DNA of 64,000 nt from a virus. Made by a program: the position numbers and the translations under genes. Shown piece after piece: positions 25,816-42,160 of the stretch (its first letter is position 1; each line of letters opens with the position of its first letter). Where the stretch lies: positions 1 to 64,000 of the IMG/VR virus record IMGVR_UViG_3300027973_000031; one strand, written 5' to 3'. The notes beneath the pieces were generated by a model. The model was not told the origin of the DNA. It searched no databases and saw only the letters and a list, made by a program, of their open reading frames with translations.

Positions 25816-25823
25816 CTATTTAT
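25815..25823 (+). promoter_or_regulatory. Late-promoter-like box ACTATTTAT
   Basis: An exact ACTATTTAT that overlaps the stop region of the SbcD-SbcC gene, 35 bases before the ATG at 25850. Same motif and spacing as at 25964, 34004, 34541, 42152, 58254 and 62196. TATTTATA within it resembles the T4 late consensus TATAAATA. Confidence 0.6.
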
Positions 25824-25849
25824 AACACCGAAAGGTTAGGAGGTATATC

Positions 25850-25903
25850 ATGGCAAAGAAGCAAGAAAAACCAGTAAAGAAAGACGAGAAGAAAAAGAAA
25901 TAA
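25850..25903 (+). CDS. 17-residue lysine-rich peptide
   Basis: A very short ORF of 17 residues (MAKKQEKPVKKDEKKKK), with 10 lysines. It is too small for normal gene calling but has a strong TTAGGAGG ribosome binding site 6-7 bases before the ATG, its own late-type box 35 bases upstream and a strong terminator directly after it. The whole unit (box to terminator) is about 140 bases. A basic peptide made late could enter the capsid with DNA, as the T4 internal proteins do, or the transcript could act as an RNA. Neither role is shown by the sequence. Confidence 0.5.
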   Translation: MAKKQEKPVKKDEKKKK

Positions 25904-25921
25904 TTTCTTCTAATAATTCGG

Positions 25922-25958
25922 AGGCGTCAAGATTAAAACCTTGACGCCTTTTTATTTT
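25922..25958 (+). terminator. Strong intrinsic terminator
   Basis: A perfect 10-base stem, AGGCGTCAAG / CTTGACGCCT, with an 8-base loop, followed by TTTTATTTT. It separates the 17-residue ORF from the next late-type box, only 6 bases downstream. Confidence 0.9.
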
Positions 25959-25963
25959 ATGAT

Positions 25964-25972
25964 ACTATTTAT
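25964..25972 (+). promoter_or_regulatory. Late-promoter-like box ACTATTTAT
   Basis: An exact ACTATTTAT, 33 bases before the ATG at 25997 and directly after the terminator at 25922. That location is a good argument that it initiates transcription of the terminase/portal operon. Confidence 0.65.
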
Positions 25973-25996
25973 TGTATAATCTCAGGAGGATTAATT

Positions 25997-26155
25997 ATGT
26001 CAGATCAAAAGCCAAAAGGACACGGACCAGCAAAAGTTGCTCCATTCACACAAAGCCCAGGTGGAAAAGGTCATAACTGGCCAAAAGCCGGTGATCCAAA
26101 CACCAAAGGCTGGAACGAGAAAGTCCACAAAGGTGGCGCTCCAAAGCCAAAATAA
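25997..26155 (+). CDS. Small Gly/Pro/Lys-rich protein (52 aa)
   Basis: A 52-residue ORF preceded by CAGGAGGA and a late-type box. Composition is extreme: Gly, Pro and Lys dominate, and short motifs recur ('GHGPAK', 'GGKGHNWPKAG', 'NTKGW', 'KGGAPKPK'). It is basic, has no hydrophobic core and is probably disordered. It is the first gene of the head operon, 9 bases before the next ORF. Its promoter and ribosome binding site quality suggest it is really made, possibly in quantity. The role is unknown; a DNA-binding or capsid-internal peptide is one possibility. Confidence 0.6.
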   Translation: MSDQKPKGHGPAKVAPFTQSPGGKGHNWPKAGDPNTKGWNEKVHKGGAPKPK

Positions 26156-26164
26156 GAGGTAGTT

Positions 26165-26521
26165 ATGCCTTTTGATCCAAAACAGATCTCGGCACTAGAA
26201 AAAGCCGTTGAAGATAAATACGGTGAAAAAGCTGTATTAGACCCTTCTTCTCTTTGGACACCCGAGAAAGAAAAAACCTACCTTGATCAGGTTAAGGCAG
26301 TTGAGAATTTTTATCGTCAACAACCTTATGAAAACCAAGTTGATCAGGGTGGTTTTATTCTCAGGGAAAAACTACTTAATAAGAGGAACTTTAAAAATTG
26401 TTCTTACTGCGGAGATCAAGTATATAAAGCAGCAGACGAAATGTATATGACAAAGTTTAATTGTTGTTTTAATTGCTACGTCTTACACCTAGAAGGAAGA
26501 GAAACAAAATGGCAGAAATAG
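26165..26521 (+). CDS. Small zinc-ribbon protein
   Basis: A 118-residue protein. The C-terminal half has a four-cysteine zinc ribbon: 'NCSYCGDQ' and 'FNCCFNCY', separated by about 17 residues. The N-terminal half is helical and charged. An AGAGGTAG site lies before the ATG. It overlaps the next gene by 13 bases, and the terminase follows that one. A location just before terminase genes is where small packaging factors often lie, but no known small-terminase signature is visible. The function is unknown. Confidence 0.6.
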   Translation: MPFDPKQISALEKAVEDKYGEKAVLDPSSLWTPEKEKTYLDQVKAVENFYRQQPYENQVDQGGFILREKLLNKRNFKNCSYCGDQVYKAADEMYMTKFNCCFNCYVLHLEGRETKWQK

Positions 26522-27099
26522 TAAACAACGAGGTCCAAAATGATATTTACGAAATTGTCCGTGGGATTGGTCAAGCGATGTCTCTGGCTTATGATGGACC
26601 AACCTACAACGAAGACATTGACAACAAAGTTGGCTTACGAAGAGAAGAAGGCAATTACTTAGTAGACAAAAGAATTATGGATGGTTTTCACGTTAAAGTC
26701 GGTGGTAGAAAGCTGACTATTAATTACCACGCAGAAATTCCGCTCAACGAGATTCATAGGATGGGAGCTGGAAAGTTTGAAGACGAAATCGAAAGCACTA
26801 TTGAAAAATGTCTTGCATTCGTCAAAAAACAATTTAAGGCTACAACAAAGAAAAGTCTTGCAACAAAAGAAGCCAAGAAAACATTAAAGAACGGAAAAAC
26901 AGTTAAGGATTTCGACGTTTTAATTCAGCCAATTTCTCGTTTTAGAACGTCTGTAACGGCACATAAATGCTACGAACTTACTGGTATTCCCGAGCCAGAA
27001 GAGTATAAGAGTCAGATTGTTGCTGATTACGAAAAGTATCACAAGAGCCTCTTTAAGAACAAGAAGAAGGCAGAAGAAGCTCCTAAGCGAGTTGCATGA
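26509..27099 (+). CDS. Conserved phage protein upstream of terminase (candidate packaging factor)
   Basis: 196 residues from the ATG at 26509, which has AGAAGGAAGAG upstream. An earlier in-frame TTG at 26473 would add 12 residues but has no such site. The sequence 'VGLRREEGNYLVDKRIMDGF' with 'INYHAEIPLNEIHR...FEDEIESTIEKCLAFVKKQFK' looks like a compact alpha/beta domain followed by a basic C-terminus. It overlaps the large terminase gene by 4 bases, so the two are translationally coupled. The small terminase (gp16) would be expected here, but no helix-turn-helix is recognisable, so that role is only positional. Confidence 0.55.
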   Translation: MAEIVNNEVQNDIYEIVRGIGQAMSLAYDGPTYNEDIDNKVGLRREEGNYLVDKRIMDGFHVKVGGRKLTINYHAEIPLNEIHRMGAGKFEDEIESTIEKCLAFVKKQFKATTKKSLATKEAKKTLKNGKTVKDFDVLIQPISRFRTSVTAHKCYELTGIPEPEEYKSQIVADYEKYHKSLFKNKKKAEEAPKRVA

Positions 27100-28679
27100 G
27101 TGTCCAATTAACTAAGAAGGAAGTTGTTAAAGAAATAATTAAATGTGGGAAAGACCCCATTTATTTTATCAATAACTTTGTCAAAATTTCTCATCCAGTC
27201 CAAGGACTTATTAGTTTTAAACTTTATCCATTCCAAGAAGATTGTATAAAACAATTTCAAGATTATAGATTTAACATCGTACTCAAAGCTCGCCAGATGG
27301 GTCTTTCGACTGCAACTGCGGGCTTTATTCTTTGGATGGTATTATTCCATAGGGAAAAGACTGTCTTATCTGTTGCCACGCAATTAAACGTTGCCGTTGG
27401 TATGGTTAAGAAGGTTAAGTTAATGTATAACAATCTTCCTGATTGGATGAAGATTGCTAAGGTTAAGAATGACAACAAAAGCACTCTTGAATTAAATAAT
27501 GGCTCTTGGGTTAAGGCAGCATCAACAACTGGCGACTCTGGTCGTTCCGAAGCTCTTTCTTTGCTCATTGTTGACGAAGCTGGCATCATTCAAGGTATGG
27601 ATGAAATGTGGGCTGGTATTTATCCTACAATTGCCACTGGTGGTCGCTGTATCGCCGTATCAACTCCAAAAGGCGTTGGTAACTGGTTTCACAAGACTTA
27701 TACAGATGCGGAGACAGGAAAGAACAACTTTAATCCTATTAAGCTAAACTGGGACGCCCACCCAGACAGAGACCAAAAATGGTGGGAAGAAAATACTAAA
27801 AACCTTAGTGCGAAGGACATTGCACAAGAATACGAATGCTCTTTTAATTTTTCTGGAAACACAATTGTTGACGGTGTAATTCTACAAGAGATGAAAGATG
27901 GAACATCAAAACCAATAAGAAGAGGTGGTTTTGATGGAAATCTATGGATTTGGAAAGAACCAGAACCAGGAAGAAGGTACTTACTTTCTGCCGACGTTGC
28001 CCGTGGAGATGCGGAAGATAATTCTGCATTTAACATTTACGATGTTGATTCTATGGAACAAGTGGCAGAATACCAAGGCAAGTTAGCCCCAGAAGCATAC
28101 GCAGAATTATTATTTGAGACATCAAAAGATTATGGTTTTTGTTTAACGGTTGTAGAGAATAACTCATTTGGTTACGGAGTGTTAGAAAAACTCAAATCAA
28201 TGAGACATCCAGCTATTTACCACCACAAAAAATCAAGTTATGATTTTATTGAGCCGATGACAGCATTGTATGATTCAAGTGCCGTTCCTGGTTTCAATAC
28301 AAACGTTAAGATGCGCCCCCTTGCTATTGCAAAGATGGAAGAATTTTTAAGAAACAAGATAATAAAAATCAATTCTGAAAGACTAATTAATGAGTTAGAA
28401 ACATTTGTTTGGAACAACGGAAAAGCGGAGGCAATTAAAGGTAGTAATGACGATTTAGTAATGTCCTGTGCAATTGCCTGCTGGGTAAGAGAAGGGGCCT
28501 TAATAATTTCTCAAAGAGATGTACAATACCGTCAAGCATTTATCAGCGGAATAAATACTGGCGGAAGAACATTTGAGTCATCAATACCTGGAATGCCTGA
28601 ACACGCAAAAGCCGAAAATCGCAAGAAGTGGGCTGAAGCATACAACAACGCAAGAGAGTTCTCTTGGTTAATGAAGTGA
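27096..28679 (+). CDS. 17: Terminase large subunit, T4 gp17-like
   Basis: A 527-residue packaging motor and nuclease. ATPase part: an Arg-type Walker A 'ARQMGLST' (65-72), Walker B 'LLIVDEAG' with Asp160/Glu161, and the coupling motif 'AVSTPKG'. Nuclease part: 'LLSADVARGDAED', with the first metal-binding Asp near residue 298, then a later acidic 'GSNDDLVMS'. It docks on the portal, pumps DNA into the prohead and cuts concatemers. The length is slightly shorter than T4 gp17 (610). Its ATG overlaps the upstream stop by 4 bases, and the portal gene follows 9 bases later. Confidence 0.93.
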   Translation: MSVQLTKKEVVKEIIKCGKDPIYFINNFVKISHPVQGLISFKLYPFQEDCIKQFQDYRFNIVLKARQMGLSTATAGFILWMVLFHREKTVLSVATQLNVAVGMVKKVKLMYNNLPDWMKIAKVKNDNKSTLELNNGSWVKAASTTGDSGRSEALSLLIVDEAGIIQGMDEMWAGIYPTIATGGRCIAVSTPKGVGNWFHKTYTDAETGKNNFNPIKLNWDAHPDRDQKWWEENTKNLSAKDIAQEYECSFNFSGNTIVDGVILQEMKDGTSKPIRRGGFDGNLWIWKEPEPGRRYLLSADVARGDAEDNSAFNIYDVDSMEQVAEYQGKLAPEAYAELLFETSKDYGFCLTVVENNSFGYGVLEKLKSMRHPAIYHHKKSSYDFIEPMTALYDSSAVPGFNTNVKMRPLAIAKMEEFLRNKIIKINSERLINELETFVWNNGKAEAIKGSNDDLVMSCAIACWVREGALIISQRDVQYRQAFISGINTGGRTFESSIPGMPEHAKAENRKKWAEAYNNAREFSWLMK

Positions 28680-28688
28680 GAATAAAAA

Positions 28689-30746
28689 ATGGCAAATAAA
28701 GCAGATCAGAGAAACAATCCAAAAAATAGTGCGTCTCCTTTATTTAAGAGATTAACAAAGTTGTTCTCTGGTCCTATCATTAATTTTAGAGCACAAAAAC
28801 CAACAAGAGAAAGAAAGTTTCAATTAGACAAGTATGCAAGCAAGTTTAATTCTCTACAAGGCTTATCATACAAGAAAAATGTTTATAACCCGTTTGATTC
28901 ACTTCGTTCTGGGAACATGGCTATTCAAAGCCGTGCAGAAAGATATGTTGACTTTGAGCAAATGGAATTTTATCCAGAGTTGGCATCTGCTCTTGATGTT
29001 TATGCAGATGAAATGACGACCTTTACAGAGGTTTCAAAGCTATTAAAGATTGATTGCCACAACGAAGAAATCAAGAACATTATTGATACTTTATTCTACA
29101 AAACACTAAACATTGAATCAAATCTCTTTAACTGGGCAAGAACAATGTGTAAGTATGGAGATTTCTTTTTGTATCTTGATACAGACGAAGTTCTTGGTGT
29201 TAAAGCAGCGATTGGCCTTCCTTCGCAGGAAGTTGAGAGATTAGAAGGTCAAGATCAAACAAACCCTAATTATCTACAATTCCAATGGAATGCTGGCGGT
29301 TTGACGTTTGAAAATTGGCAGATTGCTCACTTTCGTGTATTAGGAAATGATAAGTATGCTCCATACGGCACATCAGTATTAGATCCAGCAAGAAGAATTT
29401 GGCGTCAGTTAATTCTCGTAGAAGATGCGATGATGGCAGCAAGAGTTATTCGCGCACCAGACAGAAAAGTATTTGAGATCGACGTTTCAGGCATTCCTCC
29501 AGAAGATGTTGAGCAATATATGCAGCGCGTTATTACACAGCTTAAAAGACATCAAGTTGTAGATGATACAACAGGACAAGTAGATCTTCGCTATAATCCT
29601 CTAAGCGTTGAGGAAGATTATTACCTTCCTGTCCGCGCTGGTTCTGTATCTAAGATTACTCCACTTGCCGGTCAAAAAGGTATTGATTCAATTGAAGATA
29701 TTAAATACTTAAAGAATAAGTTATTTGCCGCAATTAAAATCCCAGGAGCTTATCTTTCACAATCTGAGTCAGATAAAGAAGATAAGTCTACACTTGCTCA
29801 AAAAGACATTCGTTTTGCAAGAACAGTTCAAAGACTGCAAAGAGCAATGCTTTCAGAAATGGAAAAGATTGGCATCGTGCATCTTTATACTCTTGGGTTC
29901 AGAGGTGATGACTTAATTTCTTTTAAACTCTCTCTAAATAATCCTTCTCGTATTGCAATGATGCAAGAATTAGAGGGATTGAGCCAAAAACTAGACGTTG
30001 CATCTAAAGCACTTGGTGCAAACTTCTTTTCTCGTCAATATGTTTCAAAAAATATATTCGGTATGTCTGATGAAGATTTTGAGAAGATTGAAAGACAACG
30101 TTTCTATGATAAGAGAGTTGATGCTGCAATTGAAGCATCTGCACAAGATATGCCGTCAGCAGGTGATATGAGTGGAATGGGCGGTCCATCGCTTTCGGCT
30201 GAACCTACAGGTGGTATAGAAGGCGGACTAGGTGGAGGACCAGGAACATTAGGGGCAGCAATAACTCCGCCTCCACCAGAAGGAGGAGAAGCTGGAGCCG
30301 CACCAGCTGGCGGAGAAGCAGCTCCAGCTCCAGAAGCAGCTCCAGCCCCTGGGGAAGAAGGTGGTTCACCACTTTTGGCAGCACCACCGCCAGAAGCCCC
30401 AGCTAAAAGAGATAGTGTTGTAAAAAGAGATAAACAAGATAAACCTGTAAAGATTGAATACGCTGATGGTTCTTACTTAACTCTTAGTTCTAAAGGTAAA
30501 AAATATAAACCAACTGATGATGACAAAAGAGAAGATCGTGGACCATTTACAAGACACGTTAAGTCTTTATGGGGAAGTCAAGCTTACGGTAAGAATTCTA
30601 AAAGAAATGCCTTTGGATTCGGTTATGTTACATCAGATCGTTTAGCAAAAGGTATTGCAGAGTCAATCGATACTAATTATAATAAGTCAGCCGAGGATCA
30701 ATTAAATAAACTTGACCGGGATTTAGAAACCATAATGGAAGAGTAA
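28689..30746 (+). CDS. 20: Portal protein, T4 gp20-like, with Pro/Ala/Gly-rich insert
   Basis: A 685-residue portal vertex protein. Diagnostic segments include 'RAERYVDFEQMEFYPELASALDVYADEMTT', the 'WARTMCKYGDFFLYLD' strand and 'SQSESDKEDKSTLAQKDIRFARTVQRLQRAML' in the crown/wing region. It forms the dodecameric ring through which DNA is pumped. After residue about 488 it has a long Gly/Pro/Ala/Glu-rich low-complexity linker (to about 575) and a basic C-terminal extension of 110 residues. T4 gp20 (524) lacks both. The extension may reach the capsid interior or scaffold (inference). It is 3 bases from the next gene. Confidence 0.92.
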   Translation: MANKADQRNNPKNSASPLFKRLTKLFSGPIINFRAQKPTRERKFQLDKYASKFNSLQGLSYKKNVYNPFDSLRSGNMAIQSRAERYVDFEQMEFYPELASALDVYADEMTTFTEVSKLLKIDCHNEEIKNIIDTLFYKTLNIESNLFNWARTMCKYGDFFLYLDTDEVLGVKAAIGLPSQEVERLEGQDQTNPNYLQFQWNAGGLTFENWQIAHFRVLGNDKYAPYGTSVLDPARRIWRQLILVEDAMMAARVIRAPDRKVFEIDVSGIPPEDVEQYMQRVITQLKRHQVVDDTTGQVDLRYNPLSVEEDYYLPVRAGSVSKITPLAGQKGIDSIEDIKYLKNKLFAAIKIPGAYLSQSESDKEDKSTLAQKDIRFARTVQRLQRAMLSEMEKIGIVHLYTLGFRGDDLISFKLSLNNPSRIAMMQELEGLSQKLDVASKALGANFFSRQYVSKNIFGMSDEDFEKIERQRFYDKRVDAAIEASAQDMPSAGDMSGMGGPSLSAEPTGGIEGGLGGGPGTLGAAITPPPPEGGEAGAAPAGGEAAPAPEAAPAPGEEGGSPLLAAPPPEAPAKRDSVVKRDKQDKPVKIEYADGSYLTLSSKGKKYKPTDDDKREDRGPFTRHVKSLWGSQAYGKNSKRNAFGFGYVTSDRLAKGIAESIDTNYNKSAEDQLNKLDRDLETIMEE

Positions 30747-30749
30747 AAA

Positions 30750-31568
30750 ATGAAAATAAGCCACAATAAAAAAAGAAATACATTGTTTTTATACGAAGCT
30801 CTTGTAAGAGAATATACAAAAGCAAAATTAGATAATGATCCAAGAAAATTACAAGAAATTCGTAATTTATTTGTGGAATATTTTTCAGAAGGAAAAGTTC
30901 TCAAAGAAGAATTAAAGATCTACAAAGCTGTTCTTGAAACAAAGAATGTAGATAAAGAATTGGCAGAAAGAATTTTATCAGAAGCAAAAAGAATGTATGC
31001 TGGTCTTGGAATGGATAAAGTATTCCAACAACAGAGTTCTTTAATCGCAAAAGTTAATCGTTCACTGACTCCTAAATTTTTTGCAAACTATGTTCCAAAC
31101 TATAAAGATATTGCAACTCTTCAACAAATTTTTGGAGACAAAGCTTCCATTCCAGCAAGAATGCTAATGGAAAGACAAGCAATTGAAAAAATGACAGTTG
31201 GCGAACAAACGTTGGATCAAATTAATGAGAAAATTGATAAGTATGTTGTTCACAGCTATTTAAACGCTTTTAATAAGAAATACTCCGATCTATTAGAAAA
31301 CCAAAAATCTTTGTTAAAGAAATATATGACAGCAACAGAGGATGATAATACCGATTTTGTTGTCTTTCTAAACGAAGAACTACAAAACATCTCTTCTAAA
31401 TTAAACTCCGCTCATAGCGTCGCGGAGGTAAAAGAAGATAAAGAAATTTTAAAGAAGCTTGTTGAGGTTAAAAAGAGATTTAACGCTCTCAAAGACGAAG
31501 AAATTGACGAGAAGTATCTACAAAAGATCCTTAAATTCCAAAAGCTCGTCAACGAATTAGAGAACTAA
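30750..31568 (+). CDS. Head-region coiled-coil protein, unassigned
   Basis: A 272-residue protein, highly charged and almost wholly helical by composition. Segments at about 5-80 and 180-272 look like amphipathic coiled coil ('SKLNSAHSVAEVKEDKEILKKLVEVKK'). There is no signal peptide or enzyme motif. It lies between the portal and prohead protease genes, 3 bases from each neighbour. In T4 the corresponding place holds gp67/gp68, small prohead-core proteins, so a core or portal-associated assembly role is plausible. That is inference; no homology was recognised. Confidence 0.5.
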   Translation: MKISHNKKRNTLFLYEALVREYTKAKLDNDPRKLQEIRNLFVEYFSEGKVLKEELKIYKAVLETKNVDKELAERILSEAKRMYAGLGMDKVFQQQSSLIAKVNRSLTPKFFANYVPNYKDIATLQQIFGDKASIPARMLMERQAIEKMTVGEQTLDQINEKIDKYVVHSYLNAFNKKYSDLLENQKSLLKKYMTATEDDNTDFVVFLNEELQNISSKLNSAHSVAEVKEDKEILKKLVEVKKRFNALKDEEIDEKYLQKILKFQKLVNELEN

Positions 31569-31571
31569 AAT

Positions 31572-32183
31572 ATGGCAATAACTATTAAAATAACAGGTAA
31601 AGAAGTTGCAGCTGCTGGTGTTAATCCAGAAGACATTGGAACACCTATGGGCGCAGATGAGGAGCCAAAGAAAGAAGAAATTAAAATTATCTTTGGACCA
31701 AGATTCATAAAAGTTAAGCTTAATATAAGAAAAACATTGGATAACAACATTGTTATTTATGACCATCCTTTGATTGACATAGTTATTATTCCATCAAAAA
31801 ATAAAATATTTACAATTCCAAAAGACAATGTAACATCTGATACGTATCCTGCTCAAAATAGATACTTTAAATTTTTAGATAGAAAAGGTGTCTTAATTAA
31901 GGGAACAATTAGAAGTGGAGCGATTATTAATTCGTTAGAGTCATTTTATCCTCCAAACGACAAGATTGACGTTATGCAAGTCATAATTCTTCTTACAAAG
32001 AGATTTATGGAAAAAGAAATGGAGTTCATTGACATTTCCAAGAATTATGAAGAAAACGTTGAAGATATGTTTGTAAATCCAGAAGAAGAAGATACAACCG
32101 AACTTGGTGAAGTTCCACAAAAACCAAGAAAAGGACACGTAAACATTTATCAAACTGCTTATGGTATTCTTTATAGGGTGTAG
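31572..32183 (+). CDS. Head-region protein, unassigned
   Basis: A 203-residue protein. The first 45 residues are polar and acidic/basic with a 'GADEEPKKEE' linker. A beta-rich domain follows (about 40-140), with strands such as 'IDIVIIPSKNKIFTIP' and 'GVLIKGTIRSGAIINS'. The C-terminus is acidic and then basic. There is no signal peptide or membrane segment. It sits 3 bases after the coiled-coil gene and is followed by a 36-base gap with an AGGAGG. It belongs by context to the head operon. I do not recognise the family. Confidence 0.48.
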   Translation: MAITIKITGKEVAAAGVNPEDIGTPMGADEEPKKEEIKIIFGPRFIKVKLNIRKTLDNNIVIYDHPLIDIVIIPSKNKIFTIPKDNVTSDTYPAQNRYFKFLDRKGVLIKGTIRSGAIINSLESFYPPNDKIDVMQVIILLTKRFMEKEMEFIDISKNYEENVEDMFVNPEEEDTTELGEVPQKPRKGHVNIYQTAYGILYRV

Positions 32184-32219
32184 GAGGAATTAATTGGTTC
32201 GAACAACAATAGAGGATAA

Positions 32220-32567
32220 ATGCTTCAACTAATTTATTTTATTCTTATTGCTTATGGCTTAACCCAAATACTTTGTTATGGTGCAATTTTAAAATTCATT
32301 AGACCTACAAAAGGATGGTTTGGAGAATTATTCCAATGTCCTATGTGTATGGGATTTTGGGTAGGAATGTTTTTATGTGGAGTTTCTCCATATACCGAAC
32401 TATTTAGTTTTGAGCAGTCTATAATAAATTTTATGTTATTGGGATTTTTAAGCTCTGGAACTAGCTACATATTAAATATGGGAGTAAGCGATGATGGCTT
32501 TAATTTTAAAATCAAATCAGGGGCACAATCTCTGGACAAACAAGTGGATGAAAAGACCACCAACTAA
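32220..32567 (+). CDS. Small membrane protein, DUF1360-like CPxCxGFW motif
   Basis: A 115-residue protein. The N-terminal hydrophobic segment (residues 1-25), the segment around 'GFWVGMFLCGV' (45-57) and 'FMLLGFLSSGTSYIL' (70-84) make it a two- or three-span membrane protein. The 'LFQCPMCMGFWVG' motif between them resembles DUF1360-type proteins, whose CPxCxGFW motif is usually at a membrane edge. The C-terminus is polar. AGAGGA precedes the ATG. A membrane protein inside a head-assembly operon is unexpected. Membrane-anchored prohead initiation, as in T4 with gp40, is one possible role. Confidence 0.55.
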   Translation: MLQLIYFILIAYGLTQILCYGAILKFIRPTKGWFGELFQCPMCMGFWVGMFLCGVSPYTELFSFEQSIINFMLLGFLSSGTSYILNMGVSDDGFNFKIKSGAQSLDKQVDEKTTN

Positions 32568-32588
32568 TTGCAAAGGAGGTTGCTGACT

Positions 32589-32786
32589 ATGAAAATATCA
32601 TACGAAAGACTAAATCAGATTATTGAAGAAGAAGTTACTAGGTTTAAGAGCCTGAATGAAGATACTCCATTGGCCAAAGATCCTGCTGTGGTTGCACTAG
32701 ATTTAGAAATGGATAGAATTAAAAGCATGGCTAAAACTAGAGAAGAGACAGTTAGATTGACTGGTTTGTTAAAGGCAATAAAATAA
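32589..32786 (+). CDS. Small protein with N-terminal amphipathic 'targeting' helix
   Basis: 65 residues from the ATG at 32589, chosen because AAAGGAGG lies 9 bases upstream; an earlier in-frame TTG would include that site. The N-terminus 'MKISYERLNQIIEEEV...SLNE' is an amphipathic helix ending in a Leu-x-Glu sequence. The same pattern begins the proteins at 33377, 58289 and 62226. In T4, similar short N-termini ending before a gp21 cleavage site direct internal proteins into the prohead. It overlaps the prohead protease ATG by one base, which fits that idea. The rest is a charged helix. The function is inferred. Confidence 0.55.
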   Translation: MKISYERLNQIIEEEVTRFKSLNEDTPLAKDPAVVALDLEMDRIKSMAKTREETVRLTGLLKAIK

Positions 32787-33376
32787 TGAATAAATACGTT
32801 TTAACAGAATTTCTTGAACTTGATAATGATTCTTCTCTTTTAACAGAAGATGATAAGAGAATGATTGAAGCTGGCGATGTCATTCTTGCTGGTCGTCTGC
32901 AAAGGGCAGATGCTAAGAATGGCAACGGCAGAGTTTATCCAAAGAGAACACTTCAAAGAGAAGTAGAAAACTATAAAAAACTTGTTCAAGAAAAAAGAGC
33001 ACTTGGCGAGTTAGACCACCCAGACTCCTCTGTTATCGAATTAAAAAATGCTTCTCACATCGTAACACACATTGAGATGAGAAATGATGAAGTTATTGGA
33101 AAGCTTCGCCTATTAGATACTCCTGCTGGTAGAATTGCAAAGGATCTTATTAGGGGCGGAGTTAAGCTTGGCGTTTCTTCTCGCGGTCTTGGTTCGACAA
33201 AGGACCAAGGCGGAACAACAATGGTACAAGATGACTTTCAGTTAATCTGCTTTGATCTTGTTTCGGAACCATCAACAACTGGTGCTTTCTTATTTAAGGA
33301 ACACAAAGAACCAAATATCTTTACCAAATCAGATAAGATTTTTAGAGCAATGAATGACATTCTAATTGAGGATTAA
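32786..33376 (+). CDS. 21: Prohead protease, T4 gp21-like
   Basis: A 196-residue serine protease of the gp21 (herpes-assemblin-like) fold. Visible features: 'GDVILAGRLQRADAKNGNGRVYP' at the N-terminus, catalytic His78 in 'GELDHPD', Ser131/132 in 'KLGVSSRG', and the 'FDLVSEPSTTGA' strand with Asp157. It processes scaffold, capsid and internal proteins after Glu residues during prohead maturation, and in T4 it degrades itself. The length matches T4 gp21 (212). 'SLLTE' near residue 21 looks like a possible self-cleavage site. Overlaps its upstream neighbour by one base; the next ATG follows with no gap. Confidence 0.9.
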   Translation: MNKYVLTEFLELDNDSSLLTEDDKRMIEAGDVILAGRLQRADAKNGNGRVYPKRTLQREVENYKKLVQEKRALGELDHPDSSVIELKNASHIVTHIEMRNDEVIGKLRLLDTPAGRIAKDLIRGGVKLGVSSRGLGSTKDQGGTTMVQDDFQLICFDLVSEPSTTGAFLFKEHKEPNIFTKSDKIFRAMNDILIED

Positions 33377-33754
33377 ATGACAAAGAGCGAAATGAAAAAA
33401 ATTATGAAGCCTCTTGTTAAAGAATGTTTACAAGAGATGTTGCTAGAAGAAGGGCTGTTGTCCAGTCTTATTAACGAAGTTAATAAAGGCAATAAACAAA
33501 TCTTTTCTGAATCAACCAGAAGAGATCCAGAAGTTACTTCTCCAAAAAAACAGCCACAACAACCACAATCAAAACCACAAATAAACGAAGTAAGAAAAAA
33601 ACTTGCTGATTCTATTGGTAAAGGTGCATACGCCAGCGTATTTGAAGGCTTAGAGCCAGCACCAGGTCCAGATAATCGTTCCGTTGATGACGGAGATCCA
33701 GGAATGGATTTATCCATTCTTAACAACATCCCAGGATTAAAGGGATTTAAATGA
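33377..33754 (+). CDS. Small head-region protein with targeting-like N-terminus
   Basis: A 125-residue protein. The first 26 residues ('MTKSEMKKIMKPLVKECLQE' then MLLEE) form an amphipathic helix ending in Leu-Leu-Glu-Glu, like the putative prohead-targeting peptides of three other proteins in this window. The middle is Gln/Pro-rich (about 55-72) and the C-terminus is acidic, with 'DDGDPGMD', and ends in a short hydrophobic helix. It begins directly after the protease stop codon and precedes the bS21 gene by 6 bases. It may be a core or internal protein; no family was recognised. Confidence 0.5.
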   Translation: MTKSEMKKIMKPLVKECLQEMLLEEGLLSSLINEVNKGNKQIFSESTRRDPEVTSPKKQPQQPQSKPQINEVRKKLADSIGKGAYASVFEGLEPAPGPDNRSVDDGDPGMDLSILNNIPGLKGFK

Positions 33755-33760
33755 GGAAGT

Positions 33761-34003
33761 ATGGCAAACAAGAGATGCAATGTCGAAGTTAAACTAAGAC
33801 AAGGTGAACACCCAGAAAGAATGGTTAAAAGATTTCTTAACAAAGTTAAGAAAGAAAAGATTGTAGAAGAGATTCAAAATAGAAAATATTATGAAACTCC
33901 AACTGCAAAAAGATCGAGAATGAAGAATCGTAGGAAAAAAGTTATAGCTAAACTTCGCAGAGAAAGAGAAGCAAAAGACATGCCAAAAGAAAAGAAAGAG
34001 TAA
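33761..34003 (+). CDS. rpsU: Ribosomal protein bS21 homologue
   Basis: An 80-residue basic protein that aligns along its length with bacterial bS21. It has the short N-terminal strand 'VEVKLRQGE', then 'ERMVKRFLNKVKKEKIVEEIQNRKYYETPTAKRSRMK', in which bS21 has R-F-K...E-[VI]-R-[RK]-[RK]-E-[FY]-Y-E-[KT]-P-[ST]. A Lys/Arg-rich helix ends it. bS21 binds the 30S platform near the 3' end of 16S rRNA and helps start translation. Free phage bS21 could replace the host copy and favour phage mRNAs. Phage-encoded bS21 is known from some aquatic phages. It is in the head operon and has AGGAAG before its ATG. Confidence 0.88.
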   Translation: MANKRCNVEVKLRQGEHPERMVKRFLNKVKKEKIVEEIQNRKYYETPTAKRSRMKNRRKKVIAKLRREREAKDMPKEKKE

Positions 34004-34012
34004 ACTATTTAT
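34004..34012 (+). promoter_or_regulatory. Late-promoter-like box ACTATTTAT
   Basis: An exact ACTATTTAT beginning at the first base after the bS21 stop codon and 32 bases before the ATG at 34036. An AAGGAGTT ribosome binding site lies between the box and the ATG. Confidence 0.6.
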
Positions 34013-34035
34013 TGTAACTTAAGGAGTTAATTATT

Positions 34036-34461
34036 ATGGCAAATGAAACAATGCAATGGCCAAATCCTGGATTGGGGTCAGTGGGTTCTTATCAATTAGG
34101 TGGGATTCCTTTTGTTACTTCTAGCTTAACAGTACCAGCAAGTAATGCAGCAATATTGAAGGTTCAGTTCCCATATGTAACTAAATTTGTAACAATTGTT
34201 AATACTGGTTCTGTCTCTGGTGCTCCAGCTATTAGAGTCGGCTTTAGCGCTCTTGGAACTACTAATACTTCAAATTATTTTTCACTAGCTTTTGGAGAAT
34301 CTTATACTGGCGAATGGAGAATTGAAGATTTATTCTTAATTTCAAATACAACAGTGCAAAGTTCTGCTTCAATTATAGCAGGATTAACTCCAATTCCAAG
34401 AGGAGTTCCTTCCTTTGTTGCTACTGGTAATAACTGGTCTGGTTCATTGGGAGTTGGATAA
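34036..34461 (+). CDS. Putative capsid decoration or head-associated protein
   Basis: A 141-residue, nearly uncharged beta protein, rich in Ser, Thr, Gly, Val and Ile. The pattern 'KVQFPYVTKFVTIVNTG...IRVGFS' followed by 'YFSLAFGESYTGEWRIEDLFLIS' suggests one compact beta sandwich. It has its own late-type box and a good ribosome binding site, so high expression is likely. The place between the protease group and the scaffold/capsid genes fits a decoration, fibre or head-surface protein. No family was recognised. Its TAA overlaps the ATG of a 22-residue ORF by one base. Confidence 0.55.
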   Translation: MANETMQWPNPGLGSVGSYQLGGIPFVTSSLTVPASNAAILKVQFPYVTKFVTIVNTGSVSGAPAIRVGFSALGTTNTSNYFSLAFGESYTGEWRIEDLFLISNTTVQSSASIIAGLTPIPRGVPSFVATGNNWSGSLGVG

Positions 34462-34529
34462 TGAAAAGTAGATTTGGTAAAAAAGGAAATTCTCTGTCTA
34501 TTGGCGGAATTAAGAAAAAAAATCATTAG
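34461..34529 (+). CDS. 22-residue basic mini-ORF
   Basis: A 22-residue basic peptide (MKSRFGKKGNSLSIGGIKKK, then Asn-His), beginning in a TAATG overlap with the upstream stop, an arrangement that favours translational reinitiation. It is too short to assign and may be chance. It is listed because this overlap type recurs between genuine genes here and the composition resembles the other tiny basic ORFs of the late regions. Confidence 0.35.
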   Translation: MKSRFGKKGNSLSIGGIKKKNH

Positions 34530-34540
34530 GGAATAAATAT

Positions 34541-34549
34541 ACTATTTAT
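34541..34549 (+). promoter_or_regulatory. Late-promoter-like box ACTATTTAT
   Basis: An exact ACTATTTAT, 34 bases before the ATG of the scaffold gene at 34575. It would drive scaffold and, through it, the major capsid gene. Confidence 0.65.
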
Positions 34550-34574
34550 TATACCATAAATGGAGAAATTATAA

Positions 34575-36236
34575 ATGAGTTCAATGTTAGAACAAGCAAT
34601 TTTAGACGCAAAAGAATTAAAGGAAGCTGCAATTAAAAATGCACAACAATCTTTAATTGAAAAATATTCTGGAGAATTTGAAGGAGAAATTGAGAGGCTT
34701 TTAGAACAAGCCGCTCCTGCCGCTGATCCTGCTCCTGCTGCCGCTCCTATGCCTGGTATGCCAGTAACTCCTGGTTCTGCTCCTGTTGATCCAGAGAAAG
34801 CAAAAGCAGATGAAGATAATAAATCTTCTATTTTCACAAAGCTTGATTATGCTTTTAAGGATGGCGAAATGATTGCAGACAAAGCTTACCCAACTGGCGT
34901 TGTTGAAATTGATCTTGATTCTTTAACAGAATTTGAATTCAGCAAAAACAAAGAAACCCCAGAACAACTTGCTCTTCAAGAATTAAAGGTATTATCAAAG
35001 AAATCTAAACTTAATGAAGAATTAGAAGAAGAAATGAATGATGATGAAGACTTTGATGATGAATCAGAAACCTTCCCATACGATGACGAAGAAGAATCTG
35101 ACGAAGATGATTTTGAAGATGACGACGAAGATTCTGAAGATGATGCCGAAGAACTTTCTGACCTAAATGATTTTAATGATGAAGGTGATGAAGAATTTGA
35201 TGACGAGGATGAAGACGTTGATTTAGATGATGAAGAAGACATGGACGTTGACATCGAAGATGAAGACTTTGAAGATGATGAAGATCTCGGAGACGAAGAT
35301 CTTTACGGCGCAGAAGACGATGTTGGATTCCACATTGATTATGATTCAGAAGAAGATGAAGATGAAGAAGACGACGAGGATTATAATCCAGACGCCGACG
35401 TAGAAGATTTTGATGATGAAGAGTATTATGATGACGAGCAAGACGAAGAAGACGAAGAAGAATCCGACGAAGAAGACGAAGAAGAATCCGACGAAGAAGA
35501 CGATGACGAGGAAGAAGATTTAGAAGAAACAAAGAAATCTGATAAAAAAGAATTAACAGATGCTGAACTTATTAAAGAGTTAATAAAACAACTTGAAAAC
35601 GCTCTTAATACAACACAGGAAAAACAACATCCAGGTTGGGCAACAAGATTAAAAACACTATTAGCAACAGCCAAAAGAGAAGATCTTAAAGAAGCTATTA
35701 AACTTGACTGGAAGAGATCAGGTCAAAGATCACCATTTACTGGTATGTTCAAAGAAGAAGCAGAACACGATTATATGTTAGAAGAACTACAAGCTCAGAT
35801 TGAAGAATTAGAGCAAGAAGTAGATTCTCTAAAAGAATCAAACAAGAGATTAAAGAGTGGCTTAAAAGATTCTGTAAAATTAAATGAAACTTTGGTTAAT
35901 AAAATCAAGAATTATGAAGAAAAATTACATGAGTCAAGAATATTGAATTATAAGCTACTATATACTAATAAGGCGCTATCAGATAGTTCCCTAAATGGAC
36001 AGCAAAAAAATAAAATTGCTGAATCTATTGATGGTGCCAAGACAGCTGAAGAAGTAAAATTGCTTTATGAAACATTAAAAAGCACAATGCGGGATGGAAC
36101 CAGTAGAAGTACACCCAAATCATTGAGCGAGGCAGTTGAAAGACGTTCTTCTTCACTTTTGCTAAGAGGCACTCGTGCGGAGCCTAAGAAGCAAGATGAT
36201 ATTGCTGAACGTATGAAACGGTTAGCAGGTTTATAA
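34575..36236 (+). CDS. 22: Prohead core scaffold, T4 gp22-like, with long Asp/Glu tract
   Basis: A 553-residue protein, twice T4 gp22 (269). N-terminal 60 residues: amphipathic helices ending 'ERLLEQAAPAADPAP', then a Pro/Ala linker. Residues about 150-316 are almost continuous Asp/Glu with few breaks. Residues about 395-455 are a heptad coiled coil ('LEELQAQIEELEQEVDSL'), and the C-terminal region 'NKIAESIDGAKTAEEVKLLYETLKSTM' matches the end of gp22-type scaffolds. It forms the assembly core and would be cut to acidic peptides by gp21. The acidic tract may mimic DNA charge or balance basic internal peptides (inference). It precedes the capsid gene by 30 bases. Confidence 0.78.
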   Translation: MSSMLEQAILDAKELKEAAIKNAQQSLIEKYSGEFEGEIERLLEQAAPAADPAPAAAPMPGMPVTPGSAPVDPEKAKADEDNKSSIFTKLDYAFKDGEMIADKAYPTGVVEIDLDSLTEFEFSKNKETPEQLALQELKVLSKKSKLNEELEEEMNDDEDFDDESETFPYDDEEESDEDDFEDDDEDSEDDAEELSDLNDFNDEGDEEFDDEDEDVDLDDEEDMDVDIEDEDFEDDEDLGDEDLYGAEDDVGFHIDYDSEEDEDEEDDEDYNPDADVEDFDDEEYYDDEQDEEDEEESDEEDEEESDEEDDDEEEDLEETKKSDKKELTDAELIKELIKQLENALNTTQEKQHPGWATRLKTLLATAKREDLKEAIKLDWKRSGQRSPFTGMFKEEAEHDYMLEELQAQIEELEQEVDSLKESNKRLKSGLKDSVKLNETLVNKIKNYEEKLHESRILNYKLLYTNKALSDSSLNGQQKNKIAESIDGAKTAEEVKLLYETLKSTMRDGTSRSTPKSLSEAVERRSSSLLLRGTRAEPKKQDDIAERMKRLAGL

Positions 36237-36239
36237 TAA
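36232..36239 (+). promoter_or_regulatory. Weak candidate late promoter before the capsid gene
   Basis: TATAATAA overlapping the scaffold stop codon lies 35 bases before the capsid ATG, the spacing used by the late-type boxes, but it does not match ACTATTTAT. It may instead be chance AT-richness; capsid mRNA could come from the box at 34541. Confidence 0.25.
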
Positions 36240-36266
36240 CTTAACTTTATCAAAGGAGATAAAACA

Positions 36267-38153
36267 ATGGCAAGTATAGTCGAAAGATTAACAGAAAATA
36301 TTGTAGAAAGAAATCTCCTTCGTGAAGGCGCTGCCCTCTCAAAGAAATGGGAGAGAACAGGTCTACTCGAAGGAATCGATAGCGACGTAACAAGAACAAC
36401 AATGTCACGTCTATTAGAAAATCAAGCAAAGGAACTACTCCGTGAAGCTTCCACAATGTCCGCTGGTGACGTTGAAGGTTTTGCTGCAGTTGCATTCCCA
36501 ATTGTTAGACGCGTATTCGGTGGTCTAATTGCAAATGAACTCGTAGCAGTTCAACCAATGAGCCTACCATCCGGTCTAATCTTCTTCCTTGATTTTACAT
36601 ATAGCAATGATACAGCAAGTAAAACAAATGTAGGTGCAATTGGTGCTCAATCTATTTACGGTGGTAACGTTGTAGCTAGCCAAATCACTGGTGGTGTTAG
36701 CTTAACTGGTGTTGATAGCAATGGTGTTCAAAACCTAGAAAAAAGCTTCTACTCACTAAATAACGGCTTTTCATCTCCTACTGGATCAGGAGCGGGAAAT
36801 GCTGCATTTGTTTGTATTGCATCTGGAACTGTTGGTGGCGGAGTTGGTGATGACGCTGCTCTTGTCAGCACATTAACTGGTCCTGCTGCAACAATTTTCC
36901 CAAATGCTACAACATTATCGCAATTAGTAGACTATGATGCAGATCTAGTAGGTCAAGCTGTTGCAGTATTTGTTGTAACAGGTAGCACACTTCCAGCAGC
37001 TGCAGCAAATCTTGATATGAAGAATATCATTACTTTCTCACCAACAGTTGGTTCTGATAGTCCACATAAATTATACCCAACAACTGGCTCAATAGTAAGA
37101 AGATTAACAAAGGGAGCTTTTGTCGGAAGTAATGGTCTTGTTTCTCTCAACTCCACTACAGCTGGCTTGTTATTCGTTGTTCAAGCAACAGGTTCAGCAA
37201 CTGCTGCCAAAGCAATAGACTTGGCAACAATGGTTGCTCGTTCAGCTACACCGCTAGTAACATTTGCAGTCAGAGATGGAGTATCACCAGGTGGTAATAC
37301 TTTGGGATCAATTGCTGAATCATTGTATCTTGAAGGTGCCGGTAGTGGTTCAAACTACACTCCAACTAGCGCAACTGGCTTTAATGCTACAATCCCAGAA
37401 ATCGATATCAAAGTCGATAGCATCGCTGTAACAGCTCAAACCAAGAAACTCAAGGCCAAGTGGTCACCAGAATTAGGTCAAGACCTAAACGCTTACCACA
37501 ACCTTGATGCTGAAGTTGAGCTAACAAGCATCCTATCTGAACACGTTGCTCTTGAAATTGATCAAGAAATCCTCAACGATCTCGTTAAGGGTGCAACAGC
37601 TGCAGTCAAGTACTGGAGCCGCAGACCAGGTAAGTTCGTCAACCGTGATTCAGGCGCAAGCATCACATCAGTCGGTGCTCCACCGGACTTCACAGGCAAT
37701 GTCAGCATGTGGTATGAAACACTCATTGAAACAATTAATGACGTTTCAGCTCAAATCCACAGAAAGACAAGACGTGGTGGTGCGAACTTTCTTGTAACTT
37801 CACCTGAAGTTGCCAACATCCTAGAATTCACCTCTGGTTTCCGCGCTGATGTCAGCATGGAAGATCTAAAGGGCGGTTCAGTTGGCGCAGTCAAGGCTGG
37901 TAGCCTCAGCAAGAAGTGGGATCTCTATGTTGATCCATACTTCCCACGCAACCTAATCCTCGTTGGTCGTAGAGGCAAGGCATTCCTCGAAAGTGGTTAT
38001 GTCTACGCTCCATACGTACCACTAATGATTACACCAACAATCTTTGGTACAGAAGACTTTGTACCAAGAAAGGGTCTAATGACTCGCTACGCCAAGAAGA
38101 TGGTTCGTCCAGACATGTTTGGTCTAGTAGTTGTTGCCGACCTAATTGGTTAA
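36267..38153 (+). CDS. 23: Major capsid protein, T4 gp23-like
   Basis: A 628-residue capsid subunit. The N-terminal 60 residues are a cleavable helical region, ending 'KELLRE|ASTMSAGDVEGF'; gp21-type cleavage after Glu60 is predicted, near the Glu65 site in T4 gp23. The body shows 'AFPIVRRVFGGLIANELVAVQPMSLPSGLIFFLDF', 'KKLKAKWSPELGQDLNAYHNLDAEVELTSILSEHVALEIDQEI' and 'RKTRRGGANFLVTSPEVANIL', all gp23 hallmarks. A Gly/Ala/Thr-rich insert (about 150-370) makes it longer than T4 gp23 (521) and may form a surface domain. AAAGGAG precedes the ATG. Codons here are more C-ending than in neighbouring genes, consistent with high expression. Confidence 0.94.
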   Translation: MASIVERLTENIVERNLLREGAALSKKWERTGLLEGIDSDVTRTTMSRLLENQAKELLREASTMSAGDVEGFAAVAFPIVRRVFGGLIANELVAVQPMSLPSGLIFFLDFTYSNDTASKTNVGAIGAQSIYGGNVVASQITGGVSLTGVDSNGVQNLEKSFYSLNNGFSSPTGSGAGNAAFVCIASGTVGGGVGDDAALVSTLTGPAATIFPNATTLSQLVDYDADLVGQAVAVFVVTGSTLPAAAANLDMKNIITFSPTVGSDSPHKLYPTTGSIVRRLTKGAFVGSNGLVSLNSTTAGLLFVVQATGSATAAKAIDLATMVARSATPLVTFAVRDGVSPGGNTLGSIAESLYLEGAGSGSNYTPTSATGFNATIPEIDIKVDSIAVTAQTKKLKAKWSPELGQDLNAYHNLDAEVELTSILSEHVALEIDQEILNDLVKGATAAVKYWSRRPGKFVNRDSGASITSVGAPPDFTGNVSMWYETLIETINDVSAQIHRKTRRGGANFLVTSPEVANILEFTSGFRADVSMEDLKGGSVGAVKAGSLSKKWDLYVDPYFPRNLILVGRRGKAFLESGYVYAPYVPLMITPTIFGTEDFVPRKGLMTRYAKKMVRPDMFGLVVVADLIG

Positions 38154-38176
38154 TCAACTAAGGGTTAATTAAGCAG

Positions 38177-38216
38177 AACCCCTGTCAGGGAAACTTGACA
38201 GGGGTTTTGTGTTTTT
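38177..38216 (+). terminator. Strong intrinsic terminator after the capsid gene
   Basis: A perfect 11-base stem, AACCCCTGTCA / TGACAGGGGTT, with an 8-base loop GGGAAACT, followed by a T-rich run TTTTGTGTTTTT. It ends the capsid transcript. Confidence 0.92.
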
Positions 38217-38220
38217 AGAA

Positions 38221-38229
38221 ACTACTTAT
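38221..38229 (+). promoter_or_regulatory. Late-box variant ACTACTTAT just before the transglycosylase ATG
   Basis: ACTACTTAT differs from ACTATTTAT at one base and directly follows the terminator. It starts only 13 bases before the ATG at 38234, too close for the usual leader, and there is no ribosome binding site. It may give a leaderless transcript or serve the neck gene at 38701. Confidence 0.4.
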
Positions 38230-38233
38230 AACA

Positions 38234-38746
38234 ATGTTTGTTATTTTTAAGCTGAGTTTCTGGATCAGCTTATTGCTCACTTGCAGAGCCAATGATCCGG
38301 AGATAAGCAACAAAATAATCGACTCTATTGAATATCAGGAATCAAGAGGAAATATATTCGTTAAAAGTAATACATACTGCACGGGCGTGATGCAAATCGA
38401 TTATCGTTATTCACCAGTGCCAAGACAGCTTTTAAGAATTCCTTACATCAATAGAATCGTTGGCACAAGAGCCATTCGTTATTGGAAGCGAAGATCCGGC
38501 AATATGAAGCTGGCTCTTGCTGCATATAATTGTGGTAATGCTGGTTTAAAAGGCAAATGTGGAGTTGGCTATGCCAATTCTGTTCTGGGAAGAAATATCC
38601 AATTTAAAAGATTAAACATTCCGAGTTGTTCTATAATAGGTGGGTTCATTAATACTTATTTAGATAACAAGGACTATTTAGTTAAGTGGAGAAATAATTT
38701 ATGGCATTACCCGTTCTTACCCCAGCATCGACAACGACAACTGTAA
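38234..38746 (+). CDS. Soluble lytic transglycosylase with signal peptide
   Basis: A 170-residue protein. Residues 1-19 form a hydrophobic signal-like segment ending 'LLLTCRA'. The SLT fold follows, with the catalytic Glu36 in 'EYQESRGN', the 'CTGVMQID' motif and 'LALAAYNCGNAGLKG'. It would cleave peptidoglycan glycan strands from the periplasmic side, as an endolysin or as a local cell-wall enzyme. The gene follows the capsid terminator and lacks a ribosome binding site. Its last 46 bases overlap the neck gene start, so the C-terminal 'HYPFLPQHRQRQL' may be an extension not needed for activity. No holin was identified nearby. Confidence 0.8.
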   Translation: MFVIFKLSFWISLLLTCRANDPEISNKIIDSIEYQESRGNIFVKSNTYCTGVMQIDYRYSPVPRQLLRIPYINRIVGTRAIRYWKRRSGNMKLALAAYNCGNAGLKGKCGVGYANSVLGRNIQFKRLNIPSCSIIGGFINTYLDNKDYLVKWRNNLWHYPFLPQHRQRQL

Positions 38747-40011: not shown

Positions 40012-40659
40012 ATGAAAATAAGTGGAATTTATATAATAGAAAATTTATCAAACGGTAAACGCTATGTCGGTTCTAGTAAAGAAGTCCATAAACGGTGGCG
40101 GAAACATAGGGGTGATTTAAAAAATAATAGACACGGTAATTCGCATCTTCAAAGTTCTTGGAATAAGTATGGAGAAAATAATTTTAAATTCTTTATTTTA
40201 GAAGAATGCGAAGAAAATTTATTAATAGAAAGAGAAGAAAAAGCAATCAATGAATTAAAACCAGAATATAATAAAACAACTTTTTCTGGTGGAAGACAAA
40301 TAAAATCTGAAAGTCACAAATTGAAATTAGCACTAGCTAATGTAGGCAAAAAAGCAACAGAAGAAACAAAATTAAAAATGTCTCTTAAAAGAAAGGGAAT
40401 TAAATTTTCAGAAGAACACAAAAAGAGAATCTCGGAAAATAATTATAGAAAAGCGCACCCAGAAAGTCTAATGGGAGATAAAAATCCTTCCGCAAAATTA
40501 AGTTGGGAAAGTGTAAGACAGATTAGAAAATTATATGAAAGCGGAGAAACCTCTAAAGAAATTGCCACTAAATTTAATATTTGTTTAGCGTCTGTTAGCA
40601 ACATAACAGCAGGAAGAAGTTGGAAAGAACAAAATACAAAGGATAATTTAAATGGCTAA
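40012..40659 (+). CDS. GIY-YIG homing endonuclease (SegA-like, NUMOD/HTH tail)
   Basis: A 215-residue mobile nuclease. Residues 1-90 are a GIY-YIG domain: 'GIYIIEN' at 5-11, 'RYVGSSKEVHKRWRKHR' with the catalytic Arg, and 'LLIEREEKAI' with the metal-binding Glu. Residues about 95-145 contain NUMOD3-like repeats ('SHKLKLALANVGKKATEETKLKMSLKRKG') for DNA contact. Residues about 160-210 form a helix-turn-helix ('SVRQIRKLYESGETSKEIATKFNICLASVSNI'). Such free-standing enzymes spread by cutting related phages that lack them. It sits between two neck genes, starting right after one stop and overlapping the next gene by 8 bases. Base composition is AT-rich like the tail genes. Confidence 0.9.
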   Translation: MKISGIYIIENLSNGKRYVGSSKEVHKRWRKHRGDLKNNRHGNSHLQSSWNKYGENNFKFFILEECEENLLIEREEKAINELKPEYNKTTFSGGRQIKSESHKLKLALANVGKKATEETKLKMSLKRKGIKFSEEHKKRISENNYRKAHPESLMGDKNPSAKLSWESVRQIRKLYESGETSKEIATKFNICLASVSNITAGRSWKEQNTKDNLNG

Positions 40660-42151: not shown

Positions 42152-42160
42152 ACTATTTAT
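42152..42160 (+). promoter_or_regulatory. Late-promoter-like box ACTATTTAT (sheath operon)
   Basis: An exact ACTATTTAT, 36 bases before the sheath ATG. The leader contains TATTCATAGGAGAAT (42168-42182), identical over 15 bases to the leader of the gene at 58289, so leader and box may have been copied as one unit. Confidence 0.65.

Follow-up and report, generated by a model that had tools for sequence, protein, structure and literature searches.

A phage-encoded bS21 gene occupies a conserved slot among the head genes of a lineage with Shine-Dalgarno-rich genes

We identified a gene for the ribosomal protein bS21 (Ribosomal_S21; 80 aa, ATG to TAA) at 33761..34003 on the + strand of the window, the whole 64,000-nucleotide stretch of viral DNA analysed here. 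As judged by sequence comparison, its family membership, the purifying selection acting on it, its conserved slot and its head-gene surroundings are established. The reading that we consider the probable one is that the phage is a T4-like myovirus of a probably Shine-Dalgarno (SD)-using bacterium and that its bS21 is functional; we infer that the protein would enter the 30S subunit late in infection, where it would keep or bias initiation for the late mRNAs of the phage.

The preliminary description had called the ORF a bS21 and had proposed a Pfam Ribosomal_S21 search and a structure prediction as checks. In the Pfam search, residues 9-60 matched positions 1-52 of the 55-position profile PF01165 with 33.6 bits (E 3.2e-8), above the curated cut-off of 27; the ORF also matched PHROG 21469 'ribosomal protein S21' (E 5.6e-7). 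Of the PDB matches found by phmmer at E<=10, 37 in number, the weakest was a designed protein; the other 36 were bS21 chains, with a best E of 3.1e-5, and came from the ribosomes of bacteria, plastids and mitochondria. These results confirmed an 80-aa bS21 at exactly 33761-34003 (+). The claim that the bS21 pattern is followed throughout held for residues 9-60 but was slightly too strong, because the C-terminal end is a charged tail that falls outside the Pfam profile; the PDB alignments mostly ended at residues 55-71. The family had one match in the whole virus record (111,588 bases), and the bS21 proteins of seven relatives scored 37.9-47.2 bits against PF01165.

AlphaFold2, run on six lineage sequences, predicted helices at residues 18-42 and 47-73 joined by a short linker (mean pLDDT 81.7, pTM 0.40), in agreement with the two-helix architecture of bS21. 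A Foldseek search with this model gave 14 matches, the best 11 of which were ribosome chains, seven of these from entries named bS21 in the phmmer search; because the best E was only 0.17, this support is weak and adds little. When the window bS21 was searched by tblastn against 50,697 phage records, nothing was found at E<=1; at this protein length the search lacked sensitivity, since it missed the bS21 genes of two phages compared below, Mel-JY01 and LR756508. The N-terminal helix segment FLNKVKKEKI was identical in 5 of 7 close-lineage bS21s, with one K to R change in loci L019 and L020, and was unlike the E. coli or Flavobacterium bS21. Long polar N-terminal extensions were observed on the bS21 of related phages (L028, L029, L032, L036 and L037/L038) and were absent from the window bS21.

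A first search of viral contigs yielded seven bS21 loci. An alignment search yielded 48 viral loci with 30 distinct bS21 proteins, including the first seven again; as they were found by a bS21 pattern built from this lineage, the 48 represent that pattern and not a sample of all phage bS21s. Their gene context was analysed with HMMs built from the window and its relatives, in which 'scaffold' and 'portal' are names given by position. The scaffold-like family lay downstream of bS21 on the same strand in 48/48 loci and the capsid in 46/48. The protease lay upstream in 32/48 loci; where the upstream sequence exceeded 3.5 kb (36 loci), it did so in 30. The distance from bS21 to the scaffold-like gene ranged from 9 to 4448 bases over the 48 loci; therefore, the slot is not always an adjacent one. 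Among the relatives, L001 is essentially the same phage as the window (proteins 99.6-100% identical in the block that was compared); the match tables of L002 and L004 did not differ. L007 shares its record with L039; its matches to portal-like, protease and capsid genes were spread over several overlapping frames, suggesting frameshifts or sequencing errors in that record. A host search by bS21 alignment in genome contigs returned 222 stretches that matched the pattern, none of which was confirmed.

Selection on the gene was estimated by the Nei-Gojobori method. The bS21 genes of the window and L002 gave dN 0.084 and dS 0.41 (dN/dS about 0.2), and those of L019 and L020 gave dN 0.014 and dS 0.59 (dN/dS about 0.02); in the remaining pairs dS exceeded 1 or was saturated. 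Thus, on these codon comparisons the bS21 gene is under purifying selection and maintained. It is more than a chance ORF, because dN is far below dS and because in all 48 viral loci it precedes the scaffold-like gene.

The head-block genes around bS21, from the terminase to the capsid, are all on the + strand. The large terminase (27096..28679) was recognized by tblastn similarity to annotated terminases, and the portal ORF upstream of the protease is named only by position and similarity to relatives. The prohead core serine protease (Peptidase_S77, PF03420; 32786..33376; Pfam E 3.2e-24, also matched in PHROG) is followed by a 125-aa ORF with no assigned function (33377..33754; best Pfam E 0.15, PHROG E 0.12), which stops 6 bases short of the bS21 ATG. 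On the other side of bS21 are a 141-aa ORF with no assigned function and with homologues in related loci (34036..34461), an acidic scaffold-like ORF in the gp22 position (34575..36236), so called because of its position and its resemblance to relatives that occupy that place, and the major capsid protein of the Gp23 family (36267..38153; Pfam E 7.2e-69, also matched in PHROG). Terminator-like hairpins were found on the + strand before the unit containing bS21 (25920..25951, 12 pairs) and after the major capsid gene (38173..38210, 17 pairs); these were the only long ones in a terminator scan whose total was at chance level (8 vs 8.2 expected). A sigma70-like scan of 25700-38700 showed no excess (37 found vs 35.8 expected), and L010, a piece of the same record, showed one (78 vs 45.7 expected, sd 6.6). 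As far as promoter patterns can indicate, the result agrees with a late head block under phage control that adjoins a region of host-type promoters. Just past the hairpin behind the capsid gene lies an ORF with a transglycosylase SLT domain (38234-38746). An ORF with a GIY-YIG nuclease domain (40012-40659) is situated within the structural gene block; it had no match in L003, though L003 has genes flanking it on both sides.

One base past the bS21 stop begins a CTATTTATT box (34005..34013, +), which is, by its placement, a candidate late promoter of the next gene. The order protease, 125-aa ORF, bS21 and box agreed with the earlier placement of bS21 between the prohead protease group and a late promoter box. 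Because the box lies downstream of bS21, its target as a + strand promoter would be the 141-aa ORF and not bS21. Further boxes that were judged by placement are the one ahead of the scaffold-like and major capsid genes (34542..34550, +) and the nearest exact one upstream of bS21 (25965..25973, +); with a box one base after its stop, bS21 ends the stretch of the window that begins at the 25965 box. The remaining exact copies, also on the + strand, start at 42153, 58255 and 62197 of the window and at L009:909, 16192, 18735 and L011:3142. Over the four pieces of the record, every one of the 10 copies is on the + strand, starts 29-35 bases ahead of a start codon and is intergenic by mechanical ORF calls, though only 8.1% of the bases are intergenic. 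By count, the enrichment was mild: 6 copies in the window vs 2.6 expected, a number reached in 7 of 100 shuffles, and 3 in L009 vs 0.5 expected. It is thus the placement that stands out and makes the box a promoter-like candidate. Among the genes that follow a box are the scaffold-like gene, itself followed by the capsid gene, the tail sheath gene (42188) and two ORFs whose peptidoglycan-binding matches are weak.

The box after the bS21 stop was kept in L002 and L003, and in L006 as CTATTTATA; it was not evident in L005, L007, L019, L020, Mel-JY01 (L013) or LR756508 (L014). In L002, a CTATTTATA box also lies upstream of the 125-aa ORF and bS21. An extra 283-aa ORF (L002:6767-7618) stands there between the protease and the 125-aa ORF, with the CTATTTATA box at 7576 near its end. 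The late promoter consensus of T4 is TATAAATA. A late promoter of this type was rejected for the window (13 matches vs 8.4 expected, both strands); CTATTTATT takes its place.

An SD-like motif preceded 55 of 103 genes of the phage, vs 17% in shuffled sequence. With one mechanical ORF caller used throughout, the motif was found before 13/22 genes in a T4 stretch, 14/36 in HTVC008M, 8/19 in Mel-JY01, 3/23 in RM378, 0/14 in Flavobacterium phage immuto and 0/32 in the 36 kb of LR756508 that were examined. Close relatives ranged from 5/11 (L005, L006) to 7/9 (L003). The lineage uses SD motifs about as T4 does. Because its genes are SD-rich, the host is probably an SD-using bacterium and not a member of the Bacteroidia. 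The SD of the bS21 gene itself is ordinary, with the core GAGG and a predicted pairing of -5.6 kcal/mol with a 9-base anti-SD, vs below -13 for the extended rpsU SD in the available text of PMC9976891, on scales that are not strictly comparable.

The SDs of the head and tail block were no stronger than the rest (n=32 vs 69, median -5.95 vs -5.7, p 0.26). The ten genes led by a CTATTTATT box had a median of -8.95 kcal/mol. The median was -5.65 in the 32 genes that follow other gaps (p 5e-4) and -5.8 in the 68 with close spacing (p 1e-4). The grouping was made once the boxes had been seen, and mechanical gene starts could weaken the controls; the difference held with controls of at least 150 aa (p 2e-4 vs 17 gap genes), and in the window alone the comparison with gap genes gave p 0.057 (6 vs 9). 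GGAG was present before 10/10 box-led genes, 10/32 gap genes and 21/68 closely spaced genes, and exact AGGAGG before only 2/10 box-led genes. The earlier suggestion of virion mRNAs with strong AGGAGG sites was therefore borne out for GGAG at the box-led genes, and failed for AGGAGG itself and, given the p of 0.26, for the block as a whole. Stronger SDs as a trait of late genes in general were rejected on that block-wide comparison; the trait is confined to the box-led first genes.

In Flavobacterium, loss of bS21 or its Y54A mutation raises the translation of strong-SD mRNAs, according to the accessible part of McNutt et al. (2023, PMC9976891). The reference sequence that we used for the Flavobacterium bS21 was checked against 7jil_z. 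No aromatic residue (F, Y, W, H) was found at residues 10-16 after the PT/PS in the window bS21 and six distinct close relatives. The Tyr54 column corresponds to V61 of the window bS21 in a MAFFT alignment and to K60 when 12 residues are counted from the PT/PS; neither is aromatic. In the wider set, 10 of 30 distinct bS21s have an aromatic near this position, so that the lack of one characterizes this lineage. Together with the lack of an SD excess in LR756508, this also indicated that neither trait goes with phage bS21 in general. Bacteroidetes-type anti-SD sequestration by the window bS21 was rejected on account of the SD-rich genes and the missing Tyr54-type aromatic; on the same two grounds, the protein should work in an SD-competent ribosome.

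Phages with bS21 and its head-gene neighbourhood are already described, and the window phage adds lineage details to a published pattern. In the text of Chen et al. (2022, PMC9723584) available to us, a prohead protease lies within ten genes of bS21 in 310 and a capsid gene in 154 of 900 published bS21 phages, and among annotated neighbours structural genes are the commonest, so the placement in a late operon was not the less expected feature for which it had been taken. The same text places bS21 on the opposite strand amid terminase, portal, protease and capsid genes, and describes its in situ transcription together with structural genes. The window bS21 is likewise near terminase, protease and capsid genes and an ORF in the portal position. 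Those phages have bS21 on the opposite strand, Bacteroidetes as predicted hosts and the Tyr54 aromatic in all 61, whereas in the window phage bS21 is co-directional, the genes use SDs and the aromatic is missing. In the accessible parts of the literature searched, we met neither an SD-rich, non-aromatic lineage with a co-directional bS21 nor a link between a promoter box and strong SDs.

Individual phages showed the same neighbourhood in part. Microcystis phage Mel-JY01 (PP395634), in which the gene is annotated RpsU, has the same strand and order of protease, one ORF, bS21, scaffold-like gene and capsid; its bS21 is only 31% identical to that of the window, and two ORFs instead of one separate it from the scaffold-like gene. 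The uncultured phage LR756508 (484 kb) has an unannotated 79-aa bS21 (39.9 bits; L014:29714-29953) just before its scaffold-like and capsid genes, and differs in its lack of an SD excess and in a protease about 11 kb upstream. Flavobacterium phage immuto (NC_055915) resembles the window in its terminase (40.5% identity), its capsid (46.3% over 59% of the query) and a similar gene order. Unlike the window, it has no bS21 within the 16 kb examined, and two other small ORFs stand between its protease and scaffold-like gene.

Other translation-related genes were observed outside the window. A one-piece tmRNA with the tag ANDNVAFDYAVAA is encoded at L011:3969-4327 (record 107969-108327; RF00023, 126.4 bits vs a cut-off of 47), and nine tRNA genes were found by ARAGORN in L010 and L011 (record 84001-111588), eight of them also by Rfam. 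Matches to tmRNA over the cut-off were found in 2 of 18 records searched, LR756508 (two, one of only 112 bases) and the record of L054. The tmRNA region was found in none of the four records of L001 (near-identical in the head region), L002, L005 and L020; either tmRNA carriage is patchy or these records are without that part. A search with the tag pattern (positions 5-7 free) matched only four loci, three titled Hyphomonadaceae and one titled Proteobacteria isolate HYPHO1, all permuted alpha tmRNAs with the tag ANDNFAQDYALAA. Since the phage tmRNA is in one piece with the tag ANDNVAFDYAVAA, this is at most a hint of the host. A phage tmRNA is already in print for a marine methylophage, according to the available text of PMC9004378.

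In the reading that we favour, a unit starting at the 25965 box would comprise the terminase, the protease, the 125-aa ORF and, last before the late-promoter-like box, bS21. Late in infection, the phage bS21 would replace or top up host bS21 on the 30S platform beside the anti-SD helix, and there it may keep or bias initiation toward the abundant late mRNAs of the phage. The available text of Chen et al. (PMC9723584) proposes late ribosome hijacking. For entry into ribosomes, the nearest likeness is the bS21 of Pelagibacter phage HTVC008M, which in the accessible text of Mizuno et al. (2019, PMC6375957) is said to derive from its Pelagibacter host and was incorporated into E. coli 70S ribosomes. 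The same text reports purifying selection on viral ribosomal protein genes and the dominance of bS21 among the ribosomal proteins found in phages; an effect on mRNA choice during infection was untested there. The E. coli ribosomes carrying the pelagiphage bS21 were about 5% active in GFP synthesis in vitro; therefore, incorporation need not mean better translation.

That loss of activity, together with the stronger SDs of the box-led genes of the window phage, would also suit a host shut-off, in which phage bS21 takes the place of host bS21 and makes ribosomes poor at host mRNAs while phage factors or leaders restore phage translation. We regard this as unlikely: the pelagiphage assay used a foreign host, as its authors say in the available text, and a gene of the head block would probably come late for a shut-off. 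The purifying selection and the near full-length family match are equally what would be expected if phage bS21 simply kept 30S subunits complete once host bS21 synthesis stops, with mRNA choice unchanged; there was no sign of mRNA selectivity, and block-wide SD strength was unremarkable. The conservation of FLNKVKKEKI, unlike the E. coli and Flavobacterium proteins, hints at a specific role, and this dosage explanation is given a low probability. Doubtful, and a bolder form of biased initiation, is the idea of a late translation class, in which CTATTTATT-driven mRNAs with strong GGAG leaders would be favoured by host 30S subunits remodelled by a phage bS21 that lacks the anti-SD-blocking residue, and the tmRNA and tRNAs would complete a takeover of initiation, decoding and rescue. 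It is very unlikely that bS21 is a small basic protein packaged with the DNA as an internal head protein, or one that helps condense DNA in head assembly, since both the profile that it matches and its conserved residues belong to bS21, although its position upstream of the scaffold-like gene (48/48) and often downstream of the protease (32/48) would suit such a role and Chen et al. (PMC9723584, available text) raise encapsidation as a possibility.

In this lineage, bS21 occurs alongside SD-rich genes and a promoter-like class, and it is the first genes of that class that have the strongest SDs. If true, a connection of phage bS21 with the strength of leaders would be a new one. The preference for phage mRNAs that we propose could be tested here in an SD-using system, free of the anti-SD sequestration that complicates Bacteroidetes hosts.
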